A DNA stretch of 64,000 nt from Terriglobia bacterium (lineage in GTDB: Bacteria; Acidobacteriota; Terriglobia; Acidiferrales; UBA7541): assembly GCA_020073605.1 (NCBI GenBank), contig JAIQEW010000008.1, positions 1-64,000 of the forward strand, in the 5' to 3' direction. Positions 11,721 through 24,738 of the stretch are shown in pieces. A program made the translations under genes and the position numbers. Below the pieces are notes generated by a model that saw nothing but the letters and a program-made list of their open reading frames with translations, did no database searches and had not been told where the DNA came from. Every line of letters starts with the position of its first letter. Within the stretch, counting starts at the first letter, position 1.

Positions 11721-12605
11721 CTATTTTTCCTGCCGAACGAGTGCCGCTCCTCGCGGGACCGCAGTGAGCTGCAGGATTTCGCCGAGTTCGCGCAGGACTC
11801 GGTGCGGCCGCCTGCCCATGGGCTGCGCGGCCCAGTCCTGCGCTGTCGTAACGCCGGTGGTCACGCCGAAACCGATTGCTCTGCCGCGCCGCGCCATAAT
11901 CATTTCCACGAGCGGGTCATCGCCGACTACGCCCACCCTGCGCATGGGAATCCCGAGTCTCTTTGCAACCAGCTTCAGCGCGTGCAACGAAGGCTTGCCG
12001 GTAAGAATCATGGGAGCGCGGGTTATCTTGCGCACGGCGGCGGCAATGGCATGCGAATAACCCATCGCCTTGCCGCCGGCCGTTGCGAAGAACGGCACGT
12101 CGGAAGCGACGTAAAGCTCGGCGCCATTCCAGATCGCTTTGCAGGCCGCTTCGATATCCTTCATGCCGCAGTCTGGGTGCCAGCCGATATAGACGGCCTG
12201 TACGTCCTCGGCGCGGTCCTGGCCGGTGAAGACAATCTCGATCCCAGCCTCCGCCAGCGGCTGGCCGACTCCCGGCAAACCCAGCACGAGGGCGCGCTTC
12301 ACGCCACGCCTCGGCATTAGGTCCGCTGCCACAGTGGAGGGCGTCAGCAAAGCCTCATCGGAAATGGGCAAGCCCAGCGCGCGAAGTTTCGGCGCTTGTT
12401 CGGCCGCCGGATACGCGCTGCCGTTTGTGAGTGCGACGAATGGTATGCCGCGAGCTTGCAACTCGCGCAGAATCTCGACGGCGCCCGGCAGCAAACGGTA
12501 GCCGCCGAGCGAACGGTTGCTCAGAATCAATGTGCCGTCGACGTCGAACATGAAGCCTTCGACAGGTCCCAACGGCTCATTCCAGCCGTTGTTACGAGAA
12601 TCCAT
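11721..12605 (-). CDS. HAD-IIA family phosphatase (NagD-like)
   Basis: 294 residues from the ATG at 12605, preceded by GGAGG at seven bases (a GTG at 12611 is the alternative). HAD motifs are intact: motif I FDVDGTL (nucleophile and acid Asp), motif II TNGS, the motif III lysine in TGKPS and motif IV GDDPLVE. The C2-type cap fits the NagD/4-nitrophenylphosphatase subfamily. It is last in a six-gene overlapping operon with a split PEP-synthase-like kinase and a biotin-dependent carboxylase. Removing phosphate from a phosphorylated intermediate of that system is inference. A phosphatase of the HAD superfamily is also associated with phenylphosphate carboxylase, a partial precedent. Confidence 0.85.
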   Translation of the reverse strand: MDSRNNGWNEPLGPVEGFMFDVDGTLILSNRSLGGYRLLPGAVEILRELQARGIPFVALTNGSAYPAAEQAPKLRALGLPISDEALLTPSTVAADLMPRRGVKRALVLGLPGVGQPLAEAGIEIVFTGQDRAEDVQAVYIGWHPDCGMKDIEAACKAIWNGAELYVASDVPFFATAGGKAMGYSHAIAAAVRKITRAPMILTGKPSLHALKLVAKRLGIPMRRVGVVGDDPLVEMIMARRGRAIGFGVTTGVTTAQDWAAQPMGRRPHRVLRELGEILQLTAVPRGAALVRQEK

Positions 12606-12607
12606 GC

Positions 12608-14089
12608 TCACGCCTCCACCGGGGCAGCCTGGCCGCGCAGCTCAAGCTTGAAGCCGCCCTTCTCGATCGATAGGTAAGTGATATCGCGCCGGGCAGTCAA
12701 CTGACGAACCAGACTCATCACGGGAGCCATATCAGGATCATATGTTTGTTGCGCAGGGCCGGCCGCCTTCATCGCGTCGACTTGGCCAGCGGGCATTGTG
12801 GCTCGAAGGAGAAATTCCTCGTCGCTTAGTTCCGGGCCGATGCGCTGTCGCAATTCGCGCAGAGGCGGCATGCCCGGCTGTTGGCGCAGCTCGCGCGTTC
12901 GCGGCAGAGATTCAATGCGATCCATCACCTCTGGCGCGATCGGGATGTTGGGTCGCCCGAATCTTCCCAGCGCATAGCGGATGATTTCGTCTGGAATGGT
13001 GGCATAGCGCTGTTTTCCGGTGACATTCAGAACCGCTTGCGTGATCAACATCTGCGCGAAAGGAGTCATTACGATTGGCCAGCCAAGCTCCTGGCGCACG
13101 CGGCCCAACTCCTCGATCACTGCGCCTTCCAAATGGGAGACTCTGGTTTCGGCGAGGTGGCGGCGCATCGTCCCAATCGTTCCGCCCGGCAATTGGTGGT
13201 GGAGATAGCTGGCGTCGAACGCCTGTGGGCAGCCCGCGGGAAGTCCTTCCGCTTCCGCAAGGCGGGTGAAGTAGCGGCCGACTTCAGCCAGCGCCTGGTC
13301 GTCGATGTCCACATGATGCCCAAGCGCGCGCAGATTGGAAACCACGCGCTCGGAGGGCGGATTGGAAATGCCGTCCGCGGCGGCGCCCGAGGCGCATTGA
13401 ACAGCGCTGACACCCCACTCGGGTGCATCCATGTAAGTCAGCTCGCCGATGCCGATTGTGCAGTGCGAATGGAGTTCGAGCGGCTTATCGCCGATTGCGG
13501 CCTTTACGGCTGGAATGAGCGTGCGAGCGCGCAGCGGTGTCAAAAGGCCGCCCATATCCTTGATGTATAGCGCGTCCACATCGGGGCTTTCTGCAAGGGT
13601 GCGGGCGCGGGCAACGTAGTGGGCGTCGTCGTGAATGGGACTCAGCGTAAAGACCAGGGCGCCGATGACGTATTCGCCCCCGGCTGCTTTGATCATGCGC
13701 GCGCAGGCGACGTTTGAATCCGCATCGTTCATAGGATCAGCCAATGCGAACCGGCGCAGCCCTTTGTTAATGAGGGTTTTGAACGCGAGCGCCATGAACT
13801 CAGGGCTGGCCGTTTCCCAGGAGATGAAACGAAAGCCTGTCGAGAGGAATTGCAGCGGCGTTTTCGGCACGGCTTTGGCCATGAGGCGAATGCGTTCCCA
13901 GGGATCTTCTTTCTTGTAGCGGACGGCGACGCCCATGTGAGTTGAGGTCGTGAAGTCGATGGCTTTGAAACCCACGCGGTCCATGACGGGCGCGATGGTC
14001 AGGGTCTTGGCTGTGTCGATGCCGAGCGCCGACCAGAGACACTGGTTGCCATCGCGCAGGGAGGTCTCGATGAGTTGAACATTAGCCAT
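12608..14089 (-). CDS. Biotin-dependent carboxyltransferase subunit (HMGL/OadA/PycB-like) with altered acceptor site
   Basis: 493 residues from the ATG at 14089 (GGAGG nine bases upstream; GTG at 14095 is possible). It has a TIM-barrel carboxyltransferase domain with metal ligand D13 in SLRDGNQ, a probable carbamylated lysine K177 in YIKDMGG and metal histidines 207 and 209 in LELHSHC, then a PYC/OadA-type C-terminal helical domain. In pyruvate-using relatives the second strand reads roughly WGGATFD; here it is FTTSTHMG, and DGHQSLLATR is DGNQCLWSAL, so the acceptor is probably not plain pyruvate (inference). It lacks its own biotinyl domain, which a neighbouring gene supplies. It overlaps the biotin carboxylase gene by eight bases and ends within four bases of the HAD start. 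Confidence 0.82.
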   Translation of the reverse strand: MANVQLIETSLRDGNQCLWSALGIDTAKTLTIAPVMDRVGFKAIDFTTSTHMGVAVRYKKEDPWERIRLMAKAVPKTPLQFLSTGFRFISWETASPEFMALAFKTLINKGLRRFALADPMNDADSNVACARMIKAAGGEYVIGALVFTLSPIHDDAHYVARARTLAESPDVDALYIKDMGGLLTPLRARTLIPAVKAAIGDKPLELHSHCTIGIGELTYMDAPEWGVSAVQCASGAAADGISNPPSERVVSNLRALGHHVDIDDQALAEVGRYFTRLAEAEGLPAGCPQAFDASYLHHQLPGGTIGTMRRHLAETRVSHLEGAVIEELGRVRQELGWPIVMTPFAQMLITQAVLNVTGKQRYATIPDEIIRYALGRFGRPNIPIAPEVMDRIESLPRTRELRQQPGMPPLRELRQRIGPELSDEEFLLRATMPAGQVDAMKAAGPAQQTYDPDMAPVMSLVRQLTARRDITYLSIEKGGFKLELRGQAAPVEA

Positions 14090-15458
14090 GCGCACGAACC
14101 TCCTGCATGAGGCGCCGCTTCTCGAGGAAGCGCGGCAGATAGCCGGTATCGACGCCGCCGGTATTGAATTCCGGATCGCTCAGGACGTCTGCGTGAAATG
14201 CGAGATTCGTGGCGACGCCTTCGATGCGAGTCGCAGCGAGTGCGTGGCGCATCCGCTCGAGCGCCGTCGGACGATCGGCGGCATGAACAATAATCTTGGC
14301 CATCAGCGAATCATAATAAGGCGGGACGCGGGAGCCAGAAGCAATATGGGTATCGACGCGCACGCCCTCGCCTGAGGGCCACACGGCCGTCCGAACCGTG
14401 CCGGGGCTGGGATGGAAGTCGCGCGCCGGATCTTCCGCATTGATCCTGCACTCGATGGCGCAACCCTCTCTTTTGACATCGTCCTGCTTCAAACGCAGGC
14501 CGCGACCGTCGGCGATGGCGATCTGCTCGGCCACCAAATCGATGCCGGTTACCGCTTCGGTGACTGGGTGCTCAACCTGGATTCGGGCGTTCATTTCCAG
14601 GAAGTAGAAAGCGTCACGCTCCAGGTCAACCAGGAATTCGACCGTGCCCGCGCTACGGTAAAAGAGCCTCTCGGTAAAGTGCACGGCTGCCGCATGGATG
14701 CGTGCGCGCAAGTCCGCGGAAAGGCCCGGAGCGGGGGTTTCCTCGATCAGCTTCTGATAACGGCGCTGGACTGAACAGTCTCGCTCGCCGAGATGAACCA
14801 CGCGGCCGTTCCCGTCACCGAGGATTTGAACTTCCACGTGGCGACCGCGTGCCACGAAACGTTCGAGGTAAACCCGCGCATCGCCGAACGCGGATCCCGC
14901 TTCCGCTCCGGCAAGCTCCATGGCCGAGGGCAGGTCCTCCAGGCGATCGACTCGCTTCATGCCGCGACCGCCGCCACCGCCAACTGCTTTGATCAGGAGC
15001 GGCGGGCCGATTTCCCGTCCGAGCGCCATGGCCTCGCGCACGGTTTCGACGGCACCGCCGGGCGCGGTCGGCACGCCGGCGGTCTCGGCCTCGGCGCGGG
15101 CGCACAACTTATCGCCTACGGCCTCGATCTGAGCCGCTGTTGGGCCGATGAAAATCACACCTTCTTGCTCGCAGAGCCTGGCGAGAGCCGGGCGTTCGGA
15201 AAGAAATCCGTAGCCCGGGTGGAGGGCATCTGCCTTCACGCCCAGCGCGGCCTGGACGATAGTGTCTACTCGCAAATAGCTGTCAGCAGGTCGGGCCGGC
15301 CCGATGCAGATGGTGCGGTCCGCGAGCCGAGCGGGCAGCGAGTCCAGATCGGCCTCGGACGCAGCCAGCACGGTTTCGATGGCGAGCGCCCTGCAAGTGC
15401 GGATCACGCGGAGGGCAATTTCGCCGCGATTGGCGATGAGTATGCGGCGGATCGCCAT
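14082..15458 (-). CDS. Biotin carboxylase (AccC-like ATP-grasp)
   Basis: 458 residues, full length for a stand-alone biotin carboxylase. The start RRILIANRGEIALRVIR, the glycine-rich ATP loop VGGGGGRGMK, the HVEVQILGD and GERDCSVQRRYQKLIEE segments and catalytic EMNARIQVEHPVTE are all intact. It carboxylates biotin on the carrier protein using ATP and bicarbonate. It starts two bases after the carrier gene and overlaps the carboxyltransferase, so the three are subunits of one acyl/keto carboxylase. It could also serve as AccC for acetyl-CoA carboxylase, but the carboxyltransferase next door is of the pyruvate/oxaloacetate class, which argues against that. Confidence 0.9.
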   Translation of the reverse strand: MAIRRILIANRGEIALRVIRTCRALAIETVLAASEADLDSLPARLADRTICIGPARPADSYLRVDTIVQAALGVKADALHPGYGFLSERPALARLCEQEGVIFIGPTAAQIEAVGDKLCARAEAETAGVPTAPGGAVETVREAMALGREIGPPLLIKAVGGGGGRGMKRVDRLEDLPSAMELAGAEAGSAFGDARVYLERFVARGRHVEVQILGDGNGRVVHLGERDCSVQRRYQKLIEETPAPGLSADLRARIHAAAVHFTERLFYRSAGTVEFLVDLERDAFYFLEMNARIQVEHPVTEAVTGIDLVAEQIAIADGRGLRLKQDDVKREGCAIECRINAEDPARDFHPSPGTVRTAVWPSGEGVRVDTHIASGSRVPPYYDSLMAKIIVHAADRPTALERMRHALAATRIEGVATNLAFHADVLSDPEFNTGGVDTGYLPRFLEKRRLMQEVRAHG

Positions 15459-15460
15459 CG

Positions 15461-15916
15461 CTAGACTCCGGGACGCACGCGCAGCAGAATCTCGTCGTAC
15501 TCGACCAGCGCCCCGTTTTCCGCCAATATCTCGACCACTTCCCCTTTTGCTCCCGCGCGCACGGAGTTCATCAGCTTCATCACTTCGATGATGCCGACCA
15601 CCGTGTCCTCTACGACGTTTGAGCCCACTTCGACGAAGGGCGGCTCGCCGGGCTTGGGCGCACGATAGAAAATCCCGAGCAGAGGAGAGGCGACTTCCGC
15701 GAGGCCTGGCTCGGACGGCGGTTTGGCTTTCCGCGGAGCTGACTGGACCGGCTGCGACTCGGCCGGGGGGGCAGGAGATGCGGGCTGCCGGACGGGTGCG
15801 GCCGAGCCGCGTTGCAGGTTCAGCTTCACTCCATTTATTTCGAGCGACAGGCTGTCAAAACTCGATTCTTCAAGCAGCCGCATGATCTCTGCCACGTCCT
15901 TGGCGGTGAGAGTCAT
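15461..15916 (-). CDS. Biotin carboxyl carrier protein (AccB-like)
   Basis: 151 residues from the ATG at 15916, whose ATGA overlaps the stop of the kinase ATP-binding subunit; upstream in-frame codons lie inside that gene and are not used. The layout is AccB-like: an N-terminal helix region (AKDVAEIMRLLEESSF), a Pro/Ala-rich linker (residues about 38-72) and a biotinyl domain with the biotinylated lysine K114 in EVMKLM. It shuttles carboxybiotin between the carboxylase and carboxyltransferase subunits encoded immediately downstream. Confidence 0.9.
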   Translation of the reverse strand: MTLTAKDVAEIMRLLEESSFDSLSLEINGVKLNLQRGSAAPVRQPASPAPPAESQPVQSAPRKAKPPSEPGLAEVASPLLGIFYRAPKPGEPPFVEVGSNVVEDTVVGIIEVMKLMNSVRAGAKGEVVEILAENGALVEYDEILLRVRPGV

Positions 15917-16962
15917 CGGCGGCCTCCGAAGATCTTCATAACGTGTTGGAGCGGGTCCTCGGTCGGTCTGGCGACGGGCGCCCGTTCCTTGGAGGACCAA
16001 ACGGTTTCTGGCCGGCTCTGCAACAACAGGATCTCGCCGGAGTGATCGATTGCCCACTCAATATCTTGCGGTCGGCCGTAATGGCGCTCGACCCGCCGGG
16101 CGATGTCTTTCAGCGCCGCAATCTCTCCGTCGCTAAGGCAGGGCACTCGCCGGGCGTGCTCTGGAGTCTCGACATCGATGACGCCGCCACCCGACGCAGG
16201 CAGATGTTGGATGTGCTTATCGGAAATCTCGCGTACGGAGATTTCGCCCGTGATCTTACCGATCACGAACCGGTCTGGTGTGACCTCACCGCTCACAACA
16301 GCCGAGCCGAGGCCCCATGCGCCTTCAATGGTGATTACGGAACGGTCGCCCGTCAGTGGGCTCCGAGTGAACATCACTCCCGCTGTTCGCGCATTGACCA
16401 TCCGCTGAATCACGACGGCCATTGCCACACCGGATTCAGGCAGACCATGCTTGCGGCGATAGGCTATCGAGGGAACGGAATAGAGGCTTGCCCAGCAGGA
16501 GCGTACGTATTTCAATGTCGCTTCCGCGCCCATCGTCCACAAGTACGTGTCCTGAAGTCCTGCAAAGCTGGCGTCTTCCGCATCTTCGGTGGTGGCAGAA
16601 GAGCGTACGGCCAATGGCCCATTGAGGTCTGCGCCACAAAGCTCCATGTGCGCTGCGACAAGCTCTGATTTCACTTCGTCTGGCAGTGGGGCATTCTCGA
16701 GCCGCGTCCGAAGGTGTTCGGACAGAGTGGTGATCTCTTCGAGTTCGTTGGCATCCAGGGCCTCCACCTTCGGTCGGATTGGCTCTTCCTTCTCCAGCGC
16801 ACTAAGAAAGCGCTCGAATGCGGCTGTGCGCACGACGAAGCCGGGCGGCACCGGAATGCTCGCCCGCGTCAATTCGCCCAGTGAGCCGCCTTTACCCCCT
16901 ACAGTTGGGCGGTCAACCAGGCAGATGTCGGCGAACCAGCCAATGATCTCTGAAGAGTGCAC
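15913..16962 (-). CDS. PEP-synthase-type ATP-binding subunit (phenylphosphate synthase beta-like)
   Basis: 349 residues carrying only the N-terminal ATP-grasp half of the PEP synthase/PPDK family: GGKGGSLGELTRASIPVPPGF near residue 22, LAVRSSATTEDAEDASFAG, VQR/VMFTRSPLTGD and the terminal ILLLQSRPETVW. It stops where a full PEP synthase would continue into the phosphohistidine domain, which a separate upstream gene encodes. This two-subunit split (about 39 and 70 kDa) matches phenylphosphate synthase rather than single-chain PEP synthase. The predicted role is transfer of phosphate from ATP to the partner's histidine. It begins 10 bases after the partner's stop and overlaps the biotin carrier start by four bases. 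Confidence 0.83.
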   Translation of the reverse strand: MHSSEIIGWFADICLVDRPTVGGKGGSLGELTRASIPVPPGFVVRTAAFERFLSALEKEEPIRPKVEALDANELEEITTLSEHLRTRLENAPLPDEVKSELVAAHMELCGADLNGPLAVRSSATTEDAEDASFAGLQDTYLWTMGAEATLKYVRSCWASLYSVPSIAYRRKHGLPESGVAMAVVIQRMVNARTAGVMFTRSPLTGDRSVITIEGAWGLGSAVVSGEVTPDRFVIGKITGEISVREISDKHIQHLPASGGGVIDVETPEHARRVPCLSDGEIAALKDIARRVERHYGRPQDIEWAIDHSGEILLLQSRPETVWSSKERAPVARPTEDPLQHVMKIFGGRR

Positions 16963-16972
16963 GTAATCTATC

Positions 16973-18811
16973 CTACTCGAGAAGGGTTACCACGCCCCGG
17001 CCGCCGTCGACGCGGATACGCTGGCCATCCTTTATTTTCTGAGTGGCCGTGCCCGTGCCGACCACGGCGGGCAGGCCATACTCTCGCGCCACGATTGCCG
17101 CGTGGCTCATCGAGCCGCCTATGTCAGATACTGCTGCGGCGATCTTCTGGAAAACCGGAGCCCAAGTCGGATTGGTGACCTGGCAGACCAGTATGTCGCC
17201 TTTGCGCAAGCGACTAATCTCCCCCGCCGACTTCACAACGCGGGCTATACCCTCAACCACACCATTCGAGGCGGCGAAGCCCTTGATCTCATTGGAATGT
17301 GGCTGCTCGCCCGCCGTCAGCCAAGTGTCCAGATTCTCGCGGGTAATGCCCCACAGCATGACAATAGCGGGGTCGTCGATGATGTCGGGAACAGGCCCGA
17401 GCGCCGGCGCAGTTTCGTGCTTCGCCCATTCCGCGATTGCCGCCTTGCGCTCTCGAACAATCGCAGGCCAGCGCGAGATACCGCGCGGAGGCGAACCGTT
17501 CGACCAGGAAGTCATCACGTCGACGATTGCCGCCTCAAGCTCGTAGTGGCTCAATTGGAACACGTCTTCGGGATCCGAGAAAAGGCCGTGCTCGACCAAG
17601 AGCGCGCCGAACTCCCTGATCTTGTTGAAAAACAGGTTCGTGTACCAGTGCTCGCAGTAGAACTTGTGCCCCTCGACGTAGGGGAAGACACGGTGCGCCA
17701 GCGTAATCATCTGATCGTAGGCGGCGCGGTCCTCGTCGGTCTCCAGAAGCTCGCGGTAGTCAGCAATTAGCTGCTTGCGCTCAGCCATGAGCCTGTCCGT
17801 TTGCCTTTCAAGGCGCTCGCCCTTCTTCGCATTTGCGATGTAGCCTGGCAGTGCAGCGAAAGGCATCGACAAATCATCGTTCCATGAGCGGTGGTAATGA
17901 TAGAAGCCGTCGCCGACATTGATGTTGAACCAAGGGTCGCGAGAAACAGCAAGCTCTTTCAGCCACGCCAAGCCGGGCTTGCCTAGTTGCTCCAGCGACT
18001 TGATGATTTCGTCTGGCGAGGCACCTTCCCGGAACTGGCTATCGACGCCCAGTTCGATGGCACACTTGGCCAGACGCCTGAGCTCGTCATCCGGACGAAA
18101 GATTTCCGCCTCTATGCCTGCTACCATGCGTGCTACTGTCTGATCGCTGATCTCCGGGAATGCCTTCTTGCAAAAGTCGAAAAACGTCAAATAGGCCCCG
18201 TATCCGAGCAGGAGAAATTCGAAATGGTGTTGCCACATCCGAAAGTAACCCTCAAGGGTCTTCTGATACGTTTCAAGAATGTAATGGTTAGACGCGACGC
18301 CGCGGCCGGCATGGACGTGCTCCAATGGCTCGAACTCCGGAAGCTCAGGCTTCGGTAGAGCCTGGGCGTCCCGAATCAACGCCATCATCTTGTTCTTCCA
18401 CTGGGCGAAGAGCCGCTCCCAGTTCGCGTAGTAGTAGAAGGCTCGCCGCTGAAACTCTTTTGTGCGCCGCTCGATCTCGGCCGGGTCCGTCACAGCGTTA
18501 CCGCCGATATAAACACGGCCATTAATGATGCGGCAATCGATGCCGAGCGTCGTGGGGAGGCAGTGTATTCGTGTGTTCGCCGAGCCCAACGCGCAATAGG
18601 CAGCCTCGGCCGTGATCATATCGAAGACACACATCGGCTCAGGAAAGTGCATGGAATTGTAGAACCAGAACCGCTCGTCGTCGTCCTTGGCGAACTGCAT
18701 GTAGTAGGGATACGCGGCTTGCGCCCGCTCAGTCCCCGCGACCACTTTCAGCGAACTAGGAAGCGGGAAGCCCGTTCGTTTCGCGGTTGCGTTCATATTT
18801 GTGGTTTTCAT
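16973..18811 (-). CDS. PEP-utilising-type phosphohistidine subunit (phenylphosphate synthase alpha-like)
   Basis: 612 residues. The C-terminal swivelling domain (about 505-612) carries the phospho-accepting histidine H570 in GGSMSHAAIVAREYGLPAVVG. The N-terminal 500 residues are a helical substrate-type region (YPYYMQFAKDDDERFWFYNS, ANWERLFAQWKNKM) quite unlike the PEP/pyruvate TIM barrel. That arrangement, with the ATP-grasp on another gene, resembles phenylphosphate synthase PpsA, which phosphorylates phenol for carboxylation. A relative that phosphorylates a different hydroxyl or enol is equally possible. It is the first gene of the six-gene operon; GAGG lies eight bases before the ATG. 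The true substrate is unknown. Confidence 0.8.
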   Translation of the reverse strand: MKTTNMNATAKRTGFPLPSSLKVVAGTERAQAAYPYYMQFAKDDDERFWFYNSMHFPEPMCVFDMITAEAAYCALGSANTRIHCLPTTLGIDCRIINGRVYIGGNAVTDPAEIERRTKEFQRRAFYYYANWERLFAQWKNKMMALIRDAQALPKPELPEFEPLEHVHAGRGVASNHYILETYQKTLEGYFRMWQHHFEFLLLGYGAYLTFFDFCKKAFPEISDQTVARMVAGIEAEIFRPDDELRRLAKCAIELGVDSQFREGASPDEIIKSLEQLGKPGLAWLKELAVSRDPWFNINVGDGFYHYHRSWNDDLSMPFAALPGYIANAKKGERLERQTDRLMAERKQLIADYRELLETDEDRAAYDQMITLAHRVFPYVEGHKFYCEHWYTNLFFNKIREFGALLVEHGLFSDPEDVFQLSHYELEAAIVDVMTSWSNGSPPRGISRWPAIVRERKAAIAEWAKHETAPALGPVPDIIDDPAIVMLWGITRENLDTWLTAGEQPHSNEIKGFAASNGVVEGIARVVKSAGEISRLRKGDILVCQVTNPTWAPVFQKIAAAVSDIGGSMSHAAIVAREYGLPAVVGTGTATQKIKDGQRIRVDGGRGVVTLLE

Positions 18812-21410: not shown

Positions 21411-22880
21411 TCACCCGCGAGCGATTCGCCGCCTCGCCCAGAACTTGGAAAGACCCTCGAACGGCAGGTCGGGTTGCAGAAACTTTCGCGGCCGGCCGAA
21501 ACCGGAAAGCACAGCCTCGGCCGCCAGATAACCGCTGCGCACGGCCCCTTCCATCGTGGCGGGCCAGCCGGTGCGCGTCCAATCACCCGCGAGGTAGAAA
21601 TTCTTCACGCCGATTTCCTGCCCGGGACGCCAGCGGTCCACGCCCGGCTCGGGCGAAAATGTCGCGCTGATTTCCTTGATCACCGTGGCCTTTATGAGTT
21701 GGGCCTCGCGCGTGGCGGGAAGAACGTCCGCTAGCTCGCGGCGGCAAAGGTCGATAATCTCCTGCCGCGAGCGCGAAACCAGATCATAAGACGCACTGAT
21801 GACCAGTTGCAAGTACTGGCCGGTCGTGCCGCTCTTACCTCCGCCCAATTTGGCTTCCTCGGTCTTCGCACCGCCGGCGGCTCCGCCCCCGTACAGCAGG
21901 GACTTGTTGAAGACCCACTGCGTCGTGTGGTCCAGCAACGACAAAAACGGTTCCTTCATCACGGTGCGGTCGAACCAGAGATGCACGCCCGTGATGGGTG
22001 AATTCCGGAGATGCCGCAGTCCTTCGAGAGGCCCGCCCTCCTCTCCCATTTCCTTCGGGAGCAGCCCCGGGAGCGCGTTGTGCGTAACGGCCGCGATGCA
22101 GGCGTCCGCGGAGACTTCCGAGCCGTCATCGAGCACAGCGCACTCAAATCGTCCTTCGCGCAAGCGGATTTCGCGCACTCCGCATCGTAGCCGCACAGGA
22201 CCGCCGCGTCGCTCCACTGCTTCGCGGCAGCCTTCGTAGAGTTCGCCGAGCGGCACCGATGGAATTCCCACGCGGTACCCGGCGCGGCTGCCCAAGAACG
22301 CCTTCCAGAAAACGTCGATTCCGTAGCGTGCACCGGTGCGCGCAAGCTCTTCATCCAGCGCGCTCACAAGCACAACGCGCCAGAAGCGCTCGATCGCGCC
22401 CGGCGTCTGCTTCATCCGGTGCAGCCAGTCGAGCATCGAGATGGACTCGATGCCGCGCGGCTCGCCGCCGGACCACGCAACCACGAGCAGCGCCCTCGCG
22501 ATGCCGCTTTTGTCCGCCAGCGTTAATGCGCCGAACGATACGAAAGACGGGGCCATGTGCAGCGGCGGAGGAAGCCAGGACGATTCGATCGTCGAGCGGC
22601 GGCCCCGCCGATCCGCGAAATACAGCCGGTCGTAGAAGCGAATCTTGCCCTCAGCCCCGGCGCGGCGATAGAAATCGGCGAGGTTGGTGCAGCAACCGAG
22701 AGTGACGTGCTGGCAATTGTCCACTTCGCTGCCATCCGGCAGCGTATAAGAAGTGGCGCGCCCGCCGAGGTGGGGGCGCTTCTCGAGCAAGCGGACCTCG
22801 AGGCCCGCTTCAGCCAGCGCGACGGCGGAGGCCAGGCCCGCCAGACCGCCGCCGATCACCAGAACGCTTTGCGAGGGCAT
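21411..22880 (-). CDS. hpnE: Hydroxysqualene dehydroxylase HpnE
   Basis: 489 residues. An N-terminal FAD-binding Rossmann motif (VLVIGGGLAGLASAVALAEAG, then LEKRPHLGGRATSY) and a C-terminal FAD motif (YLAGDWTRTGWPATMEGAVRSG) give the phytoene-desaturase-like flavoprotein fold of HpnE, which converts hydroxysqualene to squalene. The gene starts inside the 3' end of the HpnC-HpnD fusion gene, with a 71-base overlap, so it is the last gene of the hopanoid operon. A carotenoid desaturase is the main alternative, but the neighbours decide for HpnE. Confidence 0.88.
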   Translation of the reverse strand: MPSQSVLVIGGGLAGLASAVALAEAGLEVRLLEKRPHLGGRATSYTLPDGSEVDNCQHVTLGCCTNLADFYRRAGAEGKIRFYDRLYFADRRGRRSTIESSWLPPPLHMAPSFVSFGALTLADKSGIARALLVVAWSGGEPRGIESISMLDWLHRMKQTPGAIERFWRVVLVSALDEELARTGARYGIDVFWKAFLGSRAGYRVGIPSVPLGELYEGCREAVERRGGPVRLRCGVREIRLREGRFECAVLDDGSEVSADACIAAVTHNALPGLLPKEMGEEGGPLEGLRHLRNSPITGVHLWFDRTVMKEPFLSLLDHTTQWVFNKSLLYGGGAAGGAKTEEAKLGGGKSGTTGQYLQLVISASYDLVSRSRQEIIDLCRRELADVLPATREAQLIKATVIKEISATFSPEPGVDRWRPGQEIGVKNFYLAGDWTRTGWPATMEGAVRSGYLAAEAVLSGFGRPRKFLQPDLPFEGLSKFWARRRIARG

Positions 22881-24738
22881 CCGTCTTCCACCGGCCTGTC
22901 ATCCTTGCCGTCAGGAGATATTGAATCTTTTCCGTGCTTGATAACGACACACGCGAGGAAAAAACGTCGAACCCGCGCTCCTCGATCCGCGCGAGCAGGC
23001 TGCTATAGGTGCGGATCAATGCTCTCAGAGTGGCGCGGCTGTCGGCGTCCACCTGTGCGACGAGCGGAGCGCCTTCCTCGTAGAAACGCCACGCGCGATC
23101 CGCTGAAAACTCAAGAAGCTCCCGCAGTGCCGGCGTCAACGGTCCGCACAACTCCTCTTCACGCACCCCGAATTGTTCGAGATCCTCCTGCGGCAAGTAC
23201 ACGCGGCCCATCTCGTAGTCGCCCGGCACGTCGCGCAGGATGTTCGTGAGTTGGAACGCGAGGCCCAGCCGCTCGGCCAGGTCGGGAGCGCGCAGATCGC
23301 GGAAGCCGAAGACGTGCAGGCACGTGAGGCCGACGGTGCCCGCCACCCGGTAGCAGTATTCCGAGAGCCTATCGAATGTAGCATAGGATGTGACGGTCAG
23401 GTCCATCTCCGCGCCGAGAATCAGATCGTGAAAGTAGCGCGTGGGAATCTCGAAGCGCGCGATGGTGTCGGCGAGCGCGGGAAGAATCGCGGTGCCGTCC
23501 GTTCGGCCAGAGACAGCTTCGTCGAGCATGGCGCGCCAGCGGGCCAGCCCGCGGCGCTTCGATTCAAGGTCGCCCGGCTCGTCCGAAACGTTGTCCACGA
23601 GCCGCATGAAGGCGTAGAGCGCGCACAGCGCGTTGCGCTTTTCCTTGCGCAAGCCAAAGAACGCGAGATAGAAGCTGCTGCGCGCCGCTCGCGCAATGCG
23701 ATTGCACTCCGCGTAGGATGCGGATATGTCCGCCGGCTCAGCTGACGCCGCGAGAACGGGCGAGGTCGCCAAACGGAGGTCGCGCGCGGTCTCACTCGAC
23801 GCGGAACCGCCAACCGGCTGAGGAGCTGCTTGCGTAAGTGCTTTCGAGACGAGCGCGCGACTGAGCAACTTCAGTTTGGCCCACTTCGTAAGCGCCGGCC
23901 TGTGCTCCAGCGTGTTGTATCCGGCAGCTTCGATGGCGTCGAGAATGGCCATCCCGCCGCGGCTAAAAAGCTCGATATCAATCCGAAGCGCCCCATCGAC
24001 GCGCTGAGCCAGCGGCAGCCCGGAGTCAAACAGTTGGCGCGTGCGGGCGATCAAGGACTTCATCAGCGCCACGTAGCGTGAATCGAATCGCCGCGCGACG
24101 ATGTCCGCCTCGGTCAATCCGTGCGCTGCGAGCGCGTCGAGCGGAATGTAGATGCGGCCTTTTTCGAGATCGCGCGAGACGTCTTGCCAGAAATTCGCGA
24201 GCTGTAACGCCGTGCACGTGTAATCCGAAAGCCGCTGCCGCCCTTCATCCCGGTAACCGCAGACGTAGAGCACCAAACGCCCCACGGGATTCGCCGAATA
24301 GACGCAATAGTCCAGGACCTCGTCCCAGCTCTTGTAGCGATGGACTACCTGATCCTGCCGGAAGGCACGCAACAAATCCCGAAAGGGCTGCGCGGGAATA
24401 TCTTTTGCGCGAATCGTTTCCCCAAGGGCGATGAGAACCGGATGCGCGGGCGCGCGGCCCGGCTCGTAAATCAAGGAAAACTCTTCTTCCCATTTATCCA
24501 GCAAGTGGAGCGCCCGATCTCGGTCCGGGACTTCGTCACCGAGGTCGTCCGACCAGCGGCAATACGCGTAGACGTTGTAGAAATGCTGATGCAGGTGGCG
24601 CGGGAGCAGCCACGAGACGACGCCGAAGTTCTCATAGTGGTGCGTGGCAAGCCAGCGCGTGTAGCGCTGGGCTTCCTCGGCGCTGCAACCTTCGGGCGGA
24701 AGGTGGCGTGCGATATCGAGTTCGGGTGTAGGCAACAT
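22810..24738 (-). CDS. Fused HpnC-HpnD: hydroxysqualene synthase and presqualene diphosphate synthase in one chain
   Basis: 642 residues in one uninterrupted frame holding two trans-isoprenyl diphosphate synthase domains. The N-terminal domain (1 to about 300) is HpnC-like with DDLGDE (64-69) and DVSRD (186-190). After an Ala/Ser/Pro linker (about 301-335) the C-terminal domain is HpnD-like with DNVSDE (382-387) and DVPGD (503-507). HpnD makes presqualene diphosphate from two farnesyl diphosphates, HpnC converts it to hydroxysqualene, and HpnE next door finishes squalene. The two enzymes are usually separate genes. The last 24 residues overlap hpnE and look like an unstructured basic tail. 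Confidence 0.88.
   Translation of the reverse strand: MLPTPELDIARHLPPEGCSAEEAQRYTRWLATHHYENFGVVSWLLPRHLHQHFYNVYAYCRWSDDLGDEVPDRDRALHLLDKWEEEFSLIYEPGRAPAHPVLIALGETIRAKDIPAQPFRDLLRAFRQDQVVHRYKSWDEVLDYCVYSANPVGRLVLYVCGYRDEGRQRLSDYTCTALQLANFWQDVSRDLEKGRIYIPLDALAAHGLTEADIVARRFDSRYVALMKSLIARTRQLFDSGLPLAQRVDGALRIDIELFSRGGMAILDAIEAAGYNTLEHRPALTKWAKLKLLSRALVSKALTQAAPQPVGGSASSETARDLRLATSPVLAASAEPADISASYAECNRIARAARSSFYLAFFGLRKEKRNALCALYAFMRLVDNVSDEPGDLESKRRGLARWRAMLDEAVSGRTDGTAILPALADTIARFEIPTRYFHDLILGAEMDLTVTSYATFDRLSEYCYRVAGTVGLTCLHVFGFRDLRAPDLAERLGLAFQLTNILRDVPGDYEMGRVYLPQEDLEQFGVREEELCGPLTPALRELLEFSADRAWRFYEEGAPLVAQVDADSRATLRALIRTYSSLLARIEERGFDVFSSRVSLSSTEKIQYLLTARMTGRWKTDALAKRSGDRRRSGGPGLRRRAG

Follow-up and report, generated by a model that had tools for sequence, protein, structure and literature searches.

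Which pathway is served by an operon that joins a two-component kinase to a biotin-dependent carboxylase and a phosphatase? The question is raised by a locus in the window, i.e. the whole 64,000-nucleotide stretch analysed here, which comes from contig JAIQEW010000008.1 of an uncultured member of the Acidobacteriota (Terriglobia). An ORF check of the window located six tightly packed genes on the minus strand (18811–11721), all of them present. The first gene (16973..18811) encodes a kinase subunit (H) of 612 aa with a substrate-binding and a swivel domain, resembling HpeH/AcvA of the published systems described below. It is assigned by the tree and by a match to NCBIfam PRK08296.1-5 (790 bits versus a cut-off of 578), contains PF00391 (PEP-utilizers mobile domain) as its only Pfam domain, and carries its phosphohistidine, H570, in the motif GGSMSH. 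The next gene (15913..16962) encodes an HpeI/AcvB-like ATP-grasp kinase subunit (I) of 349 aa (PF01326, PPDK_N; best PDB match 9goj_A, 253.7 bits). The three components of the carboxylase follow: an HpeC-like biotin carboxyl carrier (C) of 151 aa (15461..15916; PF00364, Biotin_lipoyl) with biotinyl residue K114 in the motif EVMKLM, whose most likely start is at 15916; a biotin carboxylase subunit (BC) of 458 aa (14082..15458; PF00289/PF02786/PF02785); and an OadA/PycB-class carboxyltransferase subunit (CT; 12608..14089; HMGL-like and PYC_OADA domains) of the phosphophenylethanone carboxylase family. The last gene (11721..12611) encodes an HpeD/AcvF-like HAD-IIA phosphatase of 296 aa (PF13344/PF13242, Hydrolase_6). 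The spacings are +10 bases for H-I, −4 for I-C, +2 for C-BC, −8 for BC-CT (with an ATG start of CT; GTG at 14095 is also possible), and −4 for CT-HAD. The ORFs, Pfam domains and motifs thus bear out the initial annotation in its description of co-directional genes, a two-part kinase with H570 and a carrier with K114. A two-component kinase, a three-component biotin carboxylase and a HAD phosphatase are encoded in a single operon.

The same annotation stated that no pathway with this set had been described. This was wrong, as the activities of HpeHI, HpeCBA and HpeD were shown in 2022 and acvABCDEF is homologous (PMC9618137). The hpeHI-CBA-D genes of Rhodococcus rhodochrous GD02 belong to the hydroxyphenylethanone (Hpe) pathway (PNAS 2022, PMC9618137; kinase, JBC 2025, PMC12167813). 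The HpeHI kinase phosphorylates acetovanillone and 4-hydroxyacetophenone, HpeCBA is a biotin-dependent carboxylase that accepts only the phosphorylated ketone, and dephosphorylation by the phosphatase HpeD was assayed (PMC9618137). HpeHI, a phosphohistidine dikinase of two components, loses its activity when the His is mutated (PMC12167813). The reaction order proposed from the window, in which an acceptor is phosphorylated, carboxylated from carboxybiotin and relieved of its phosphate ester, is the same as the published Hpe chemistry (PMC9618137). Of the two acceptor phosphates then suggested, the aryl phosphate stands and the enol phosphate does not, since the Hpe kinase places the phosphate on the ring hydroxyl. 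The acvABCDEF genes of Sphingobium lignivorans SYK-6 are described as homologous and syntenous to the Hpe genes and are reported to be essential for growth on acetovanillone; SYK-6 is also reported to use this operon on acetosyringone (PMC9618137). Three such operons were compared in RHA1 by a later study (PMC13101465).

The window operon is in agreement with these systems in gene content and order. In Rhodococcus sp. JS3073, the genes occur in the same order (H-I-C-BC-CT-HAD), followed by an acyl-CoA-ligase-like ORF, and the window proteins are 45% (H), 43% (I), 36% (C), 52% (BC), 42% (CT) and 36% (HAD) identical to their counterparts there. The biotin carboxylase corresponds to that of JS3073 in both position and family, and the HAD protein is 36–42% identical to the copies in JS3073 (L113), Rhizobium leguminosarum (L110) and S. 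bisphenolicum AO1 (L112). The I protein of JS3073 shares 97.3% identity with PDB 9goj over 337 aa; 9goj is also the best PDB match of the window I protein. The PDB title of 9goj says only PEP synthase; from its length and genomic context, we take it to be HpeI. The window operon and Hpe have in common a two-subunit phenolic dikinase, a three-component biotin carboxylase and a HAD phosphatase in one operon, as well as the CT clade and signature described below. In contrast to Hpe, the window operon has no attached hpeE or hpeF, its host belongs to the Acidobacteriota, and its H, I and CT proteins are 42–45% identical, as measured against the near-identical Rhodococcus copy.

In the kinase trees, the window proteins group with copies from Acidobacteriota, Gammaproteobacteria and Sphingobium, and then with the Rhizobium leguminosarum operon. 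The window clade thereby joins six-gene operons; the deeper branches are long, and either Rhodococcus HpeH or PpsA and CreH may be next to it. The H protein is present in 8 of 94 Sphingobium genomes, at 71–76% identity to window H (73–76% in seven of the eight). As no H copy of lower identity was found among the 94 genomes, AcvA of SYK-6 probably belongs in the window clade. Acv resembles the window operon in its six genes and in having the later steps encoded elsewhere, as far as these are described (PMC9618137, PMC13101465); it differs in phylum, and the comparison was made through the H proteins of Sphingobium relatives.

In the CT tree, a single clade with 100/100 support unites the window with Rhodococcus sp. 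JS3073, the six-gene operon of Rhizobium leguminosarum and three further loci, namely L111 and L112, where the cluster contains a UPF0261-type gene, and L133, where the H-I pair was not detected. PycB, OadA, PC and two other groups of OadA-like carboxyltransferases fall outside this clade. In all clade members examined, Thr within a TGxRF motif takes the place of the Arg that binds pyruvate in pyruvate carboxylases, where it belongs to a QMLLRG motif (R621 in R. etli PC). Thr likewise occupies the Asn position of the PGGxx(T/S)N loop in all of them.

These features bear on a pyruvate node, in which a split PEP synthase and a pyruvate carboxylase would lead to oxaloacetate. The domain families do overlap with those of PEP synthase and PycB, and neither another OadA/PC-class carboxyltransferase nor a PEP carboxylase was found in the host's own genome. 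Yet the H subunit lacks the PEP/pyruvate barrel domain, the sole such barrel found in the genome sits in a separate protein of 861 aa, CT lies outside the PycB/OadA/PC group and has lost the pyruvate-binding Arg, and the operon was found in only a minority of genus mates. The initial annotation was right to disfavor this rival, and we reject it as highly improbable on account of the missing barrel in H, the separate barrel protein and the altered CT active site. Equally improbable is activation of phenol or 4-alkylphenols by a PpsAB- or CreHI-type kinase to which the carboxylase is unrelated. Window H is 41–45% identical to PpsA-like (L131) and CreH-like (L132) proteins, and phenylphosphate synthase PpsAB is also a two-subunit dikinase with a phosphohistidine mechanism. 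However, PpsAB of L131 is accompanied by genes for a UbiD-type phenylphosphate carboxylase and the CreHI-like pair of L132 by P450 and SDR genes, a biotin carboxylase gene is absent from both stretches, and window H and I group with six-gene carboxylase operons. A phenol or cresol kinase was thus rejected on operon context, the partner carboxylase being biotin-dependent, not UbiD-type.

A closer rival retains the Hpe/Acv chemistry but assigns it to another physiological aryl ketone, such as a larger lignin fragment or a plant phenolic, which would be processed further by a route of its own. It would fit the separation of the window clade (about 70–90% H identity) from the characterised Rhodococcus type (42–45% for H, I and CT), and an HpeE-like acyl-CoA ligase was not found in the host's own genome at E<=1e-60. 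Set against this are the Sphingobium members inside the clade, given the reported use by SYK-6 of its homologous operon on both acetovanillone and acetosyringone (PMC9618137), and the co-occurrence of LigM/DesA genes. We consider this rival unlikely. The operon very likely constitutes the upper part of the Hpe/Acv pathway, by which phenolic methyl ketones derived from lignin (acetovanillone, 4-hydroxyacetophenone and probably acetosyringone) would be broken down. For this assignment, gene content, gene order, clade, active-site signature and lower-pathway genes come from our analysis and the reactions from the cited papers.

In the Hpe/Acv scheme, the I subunit would bind ATP, leading to phosphorylation of H570 in the H subunit, and the swivel domain of H would pass the phosphate on to the hydroxyl group of the phenol. 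K114 of the carrier would be charged by the biotin carboxylase, and CT would place the CO2 on the methyl carbon of the acetyl group in the phosphorylated ketone. Removal of the phosphate by the HAD enzyme would yield an aroyl-acetate (β-keto acid), to be split into vanillate, syringate or 4-hydroxybenzoate; the exact substrate and the cleaving enzyme in the host are putative. Enzymes for such a split in the Hpe/Acv pathway are HpeE/HpeF or VceA/VceB. These acids could then be degraded by LigM/DesA-like O-demethylases and a LigB-type ring-cleavage enzyme of the host. Such a lower vanillate/syringate pathway is represented on other contigs of the genome by LigM (777 bits versus a curated cut-off of 580), a DesA-like protein (798 bits, just under the cut-off of 800) and a LigB-type dioxygenase. 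No recognised aromatic gene adjoins the operon in the window genome. The only BKACE match of the genome was rejected as a poor candidate for the next-step enzyme, given the probable twin-arginine (Tat) signal at its N-terminus. Beside the relatives' operons, AraC regulators are encoded at 25 loci and LigM/DesA-type O-demethylases at 13; MarR regulators, LigB dioxygenases and acyl-CoA synthetases also occur there. A ChrR-type cupin adjoins the operon at L039:2351-2941 and four other loci, from Acidobacteriota and one Gammaproteobacterium. In one genus mate (L019:14043-20003), genes for an acetophenone-carboxylase-like ApcC and related hydantoinase-type proteins lie just upstream of the operon; a search of the host's own genome for an ApcC-like subunit was empty.

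The gene order is not unique to this genome. A close CT (87–91% identity) is present in 6 of 19 genus mates, in which H and CT are 81–91% identical to the window proteins and the operon order is kept as far as the contigs reach. Of the best 80 loci kept from a GTDB genome scan (69–89% H identity; 16 from Acidobacteriota and 64 from Pseudomonadota), 62 have H, I, C and CT in a cluster. The order kept in genus mates where contigs allow and the recurrence of the cluster in two phyla indicate that the operon is not a chance arrangement. The clustered loci are evenly divided into 31 with and 31 without a BC gene. In the latter (L033, L035-L040, L047, L074-L109), H, I, carrier, CT and usually HAD are encoded with no BC gene between carrier and CT, and the stop codon of C lies at or near the start of CT. 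These operons presumably share AccC.

Related carboxylase genes also occur with a putative kinase of another type. On the plasmids of P. putida YC-AE1 (L111:5883-7130) and S. bisphenolicum AO1 (L112:5972-7204), a Tm-1-like/UPF0261 gene replaces the two-part kinase beside the carboxylase and phosphatase genes. The protein from S. bisphenolicum AO1 matches PDB 9mpy (578 bits) and is probably a MarK-type kinase. MarK-type clusters have a single-component kinase (cited in PMC13101465); L111 and L112, as their putative representatives, share the carboxylase and phosphatase genes of the window operon but not its H-I pair. XccABC of Aromatoleum aromaticum EbN1, set beside the window by its description, is a biotin carboxylase with homology to HpeCBA, and its genes lie together with homologues of hpeHI, but it serves an anaerobic p-ethylphenol route (PMC9618137).

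The window operon is therefore very likely a member of the known Hpe/Acv pathway in a new phylum setting, and its chemistry is not new in kind. The new points are modest: the occurrence in uncultured Acidobacteriota, the frequent variant without its own BC gene, and more clusters than reported. In published counts, the complete eight-gene cluster was present in four further genomes (PMC9618137), and kinase and carboxylase were clustered in 52 of 836 cases (PMC13101465), numbers exceeded by the 62 clustered copies that a single genome scan gave among its best 80 loci. The finding extends a lignin-ketone pathway of recent description to uncultured soil Acidobacteriota, supplying variant enzymes for lignin valorisation and giving these soil bacteria a role that can be tested. 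A broader view, doubtful but conceivable, is that the Acidobacteriota/Pseudomonadota clade forms a widespread, largely uncharacterised branch with its own aryl ketone and downstream route, in which about half of the operons have lost the BC gene and share the subunit of the fatty-acid enzyme, and which would represent a significant soil lignin sink.

Elsewhere in the window, a single ORF of 642 aa (22810-24738) matches both HpnC and HpnD of hopanoid squalene synthesis above the curated cut-offs. This apparent HpnC-HpnD fusion is adjoined by HpnE (21411-22880).
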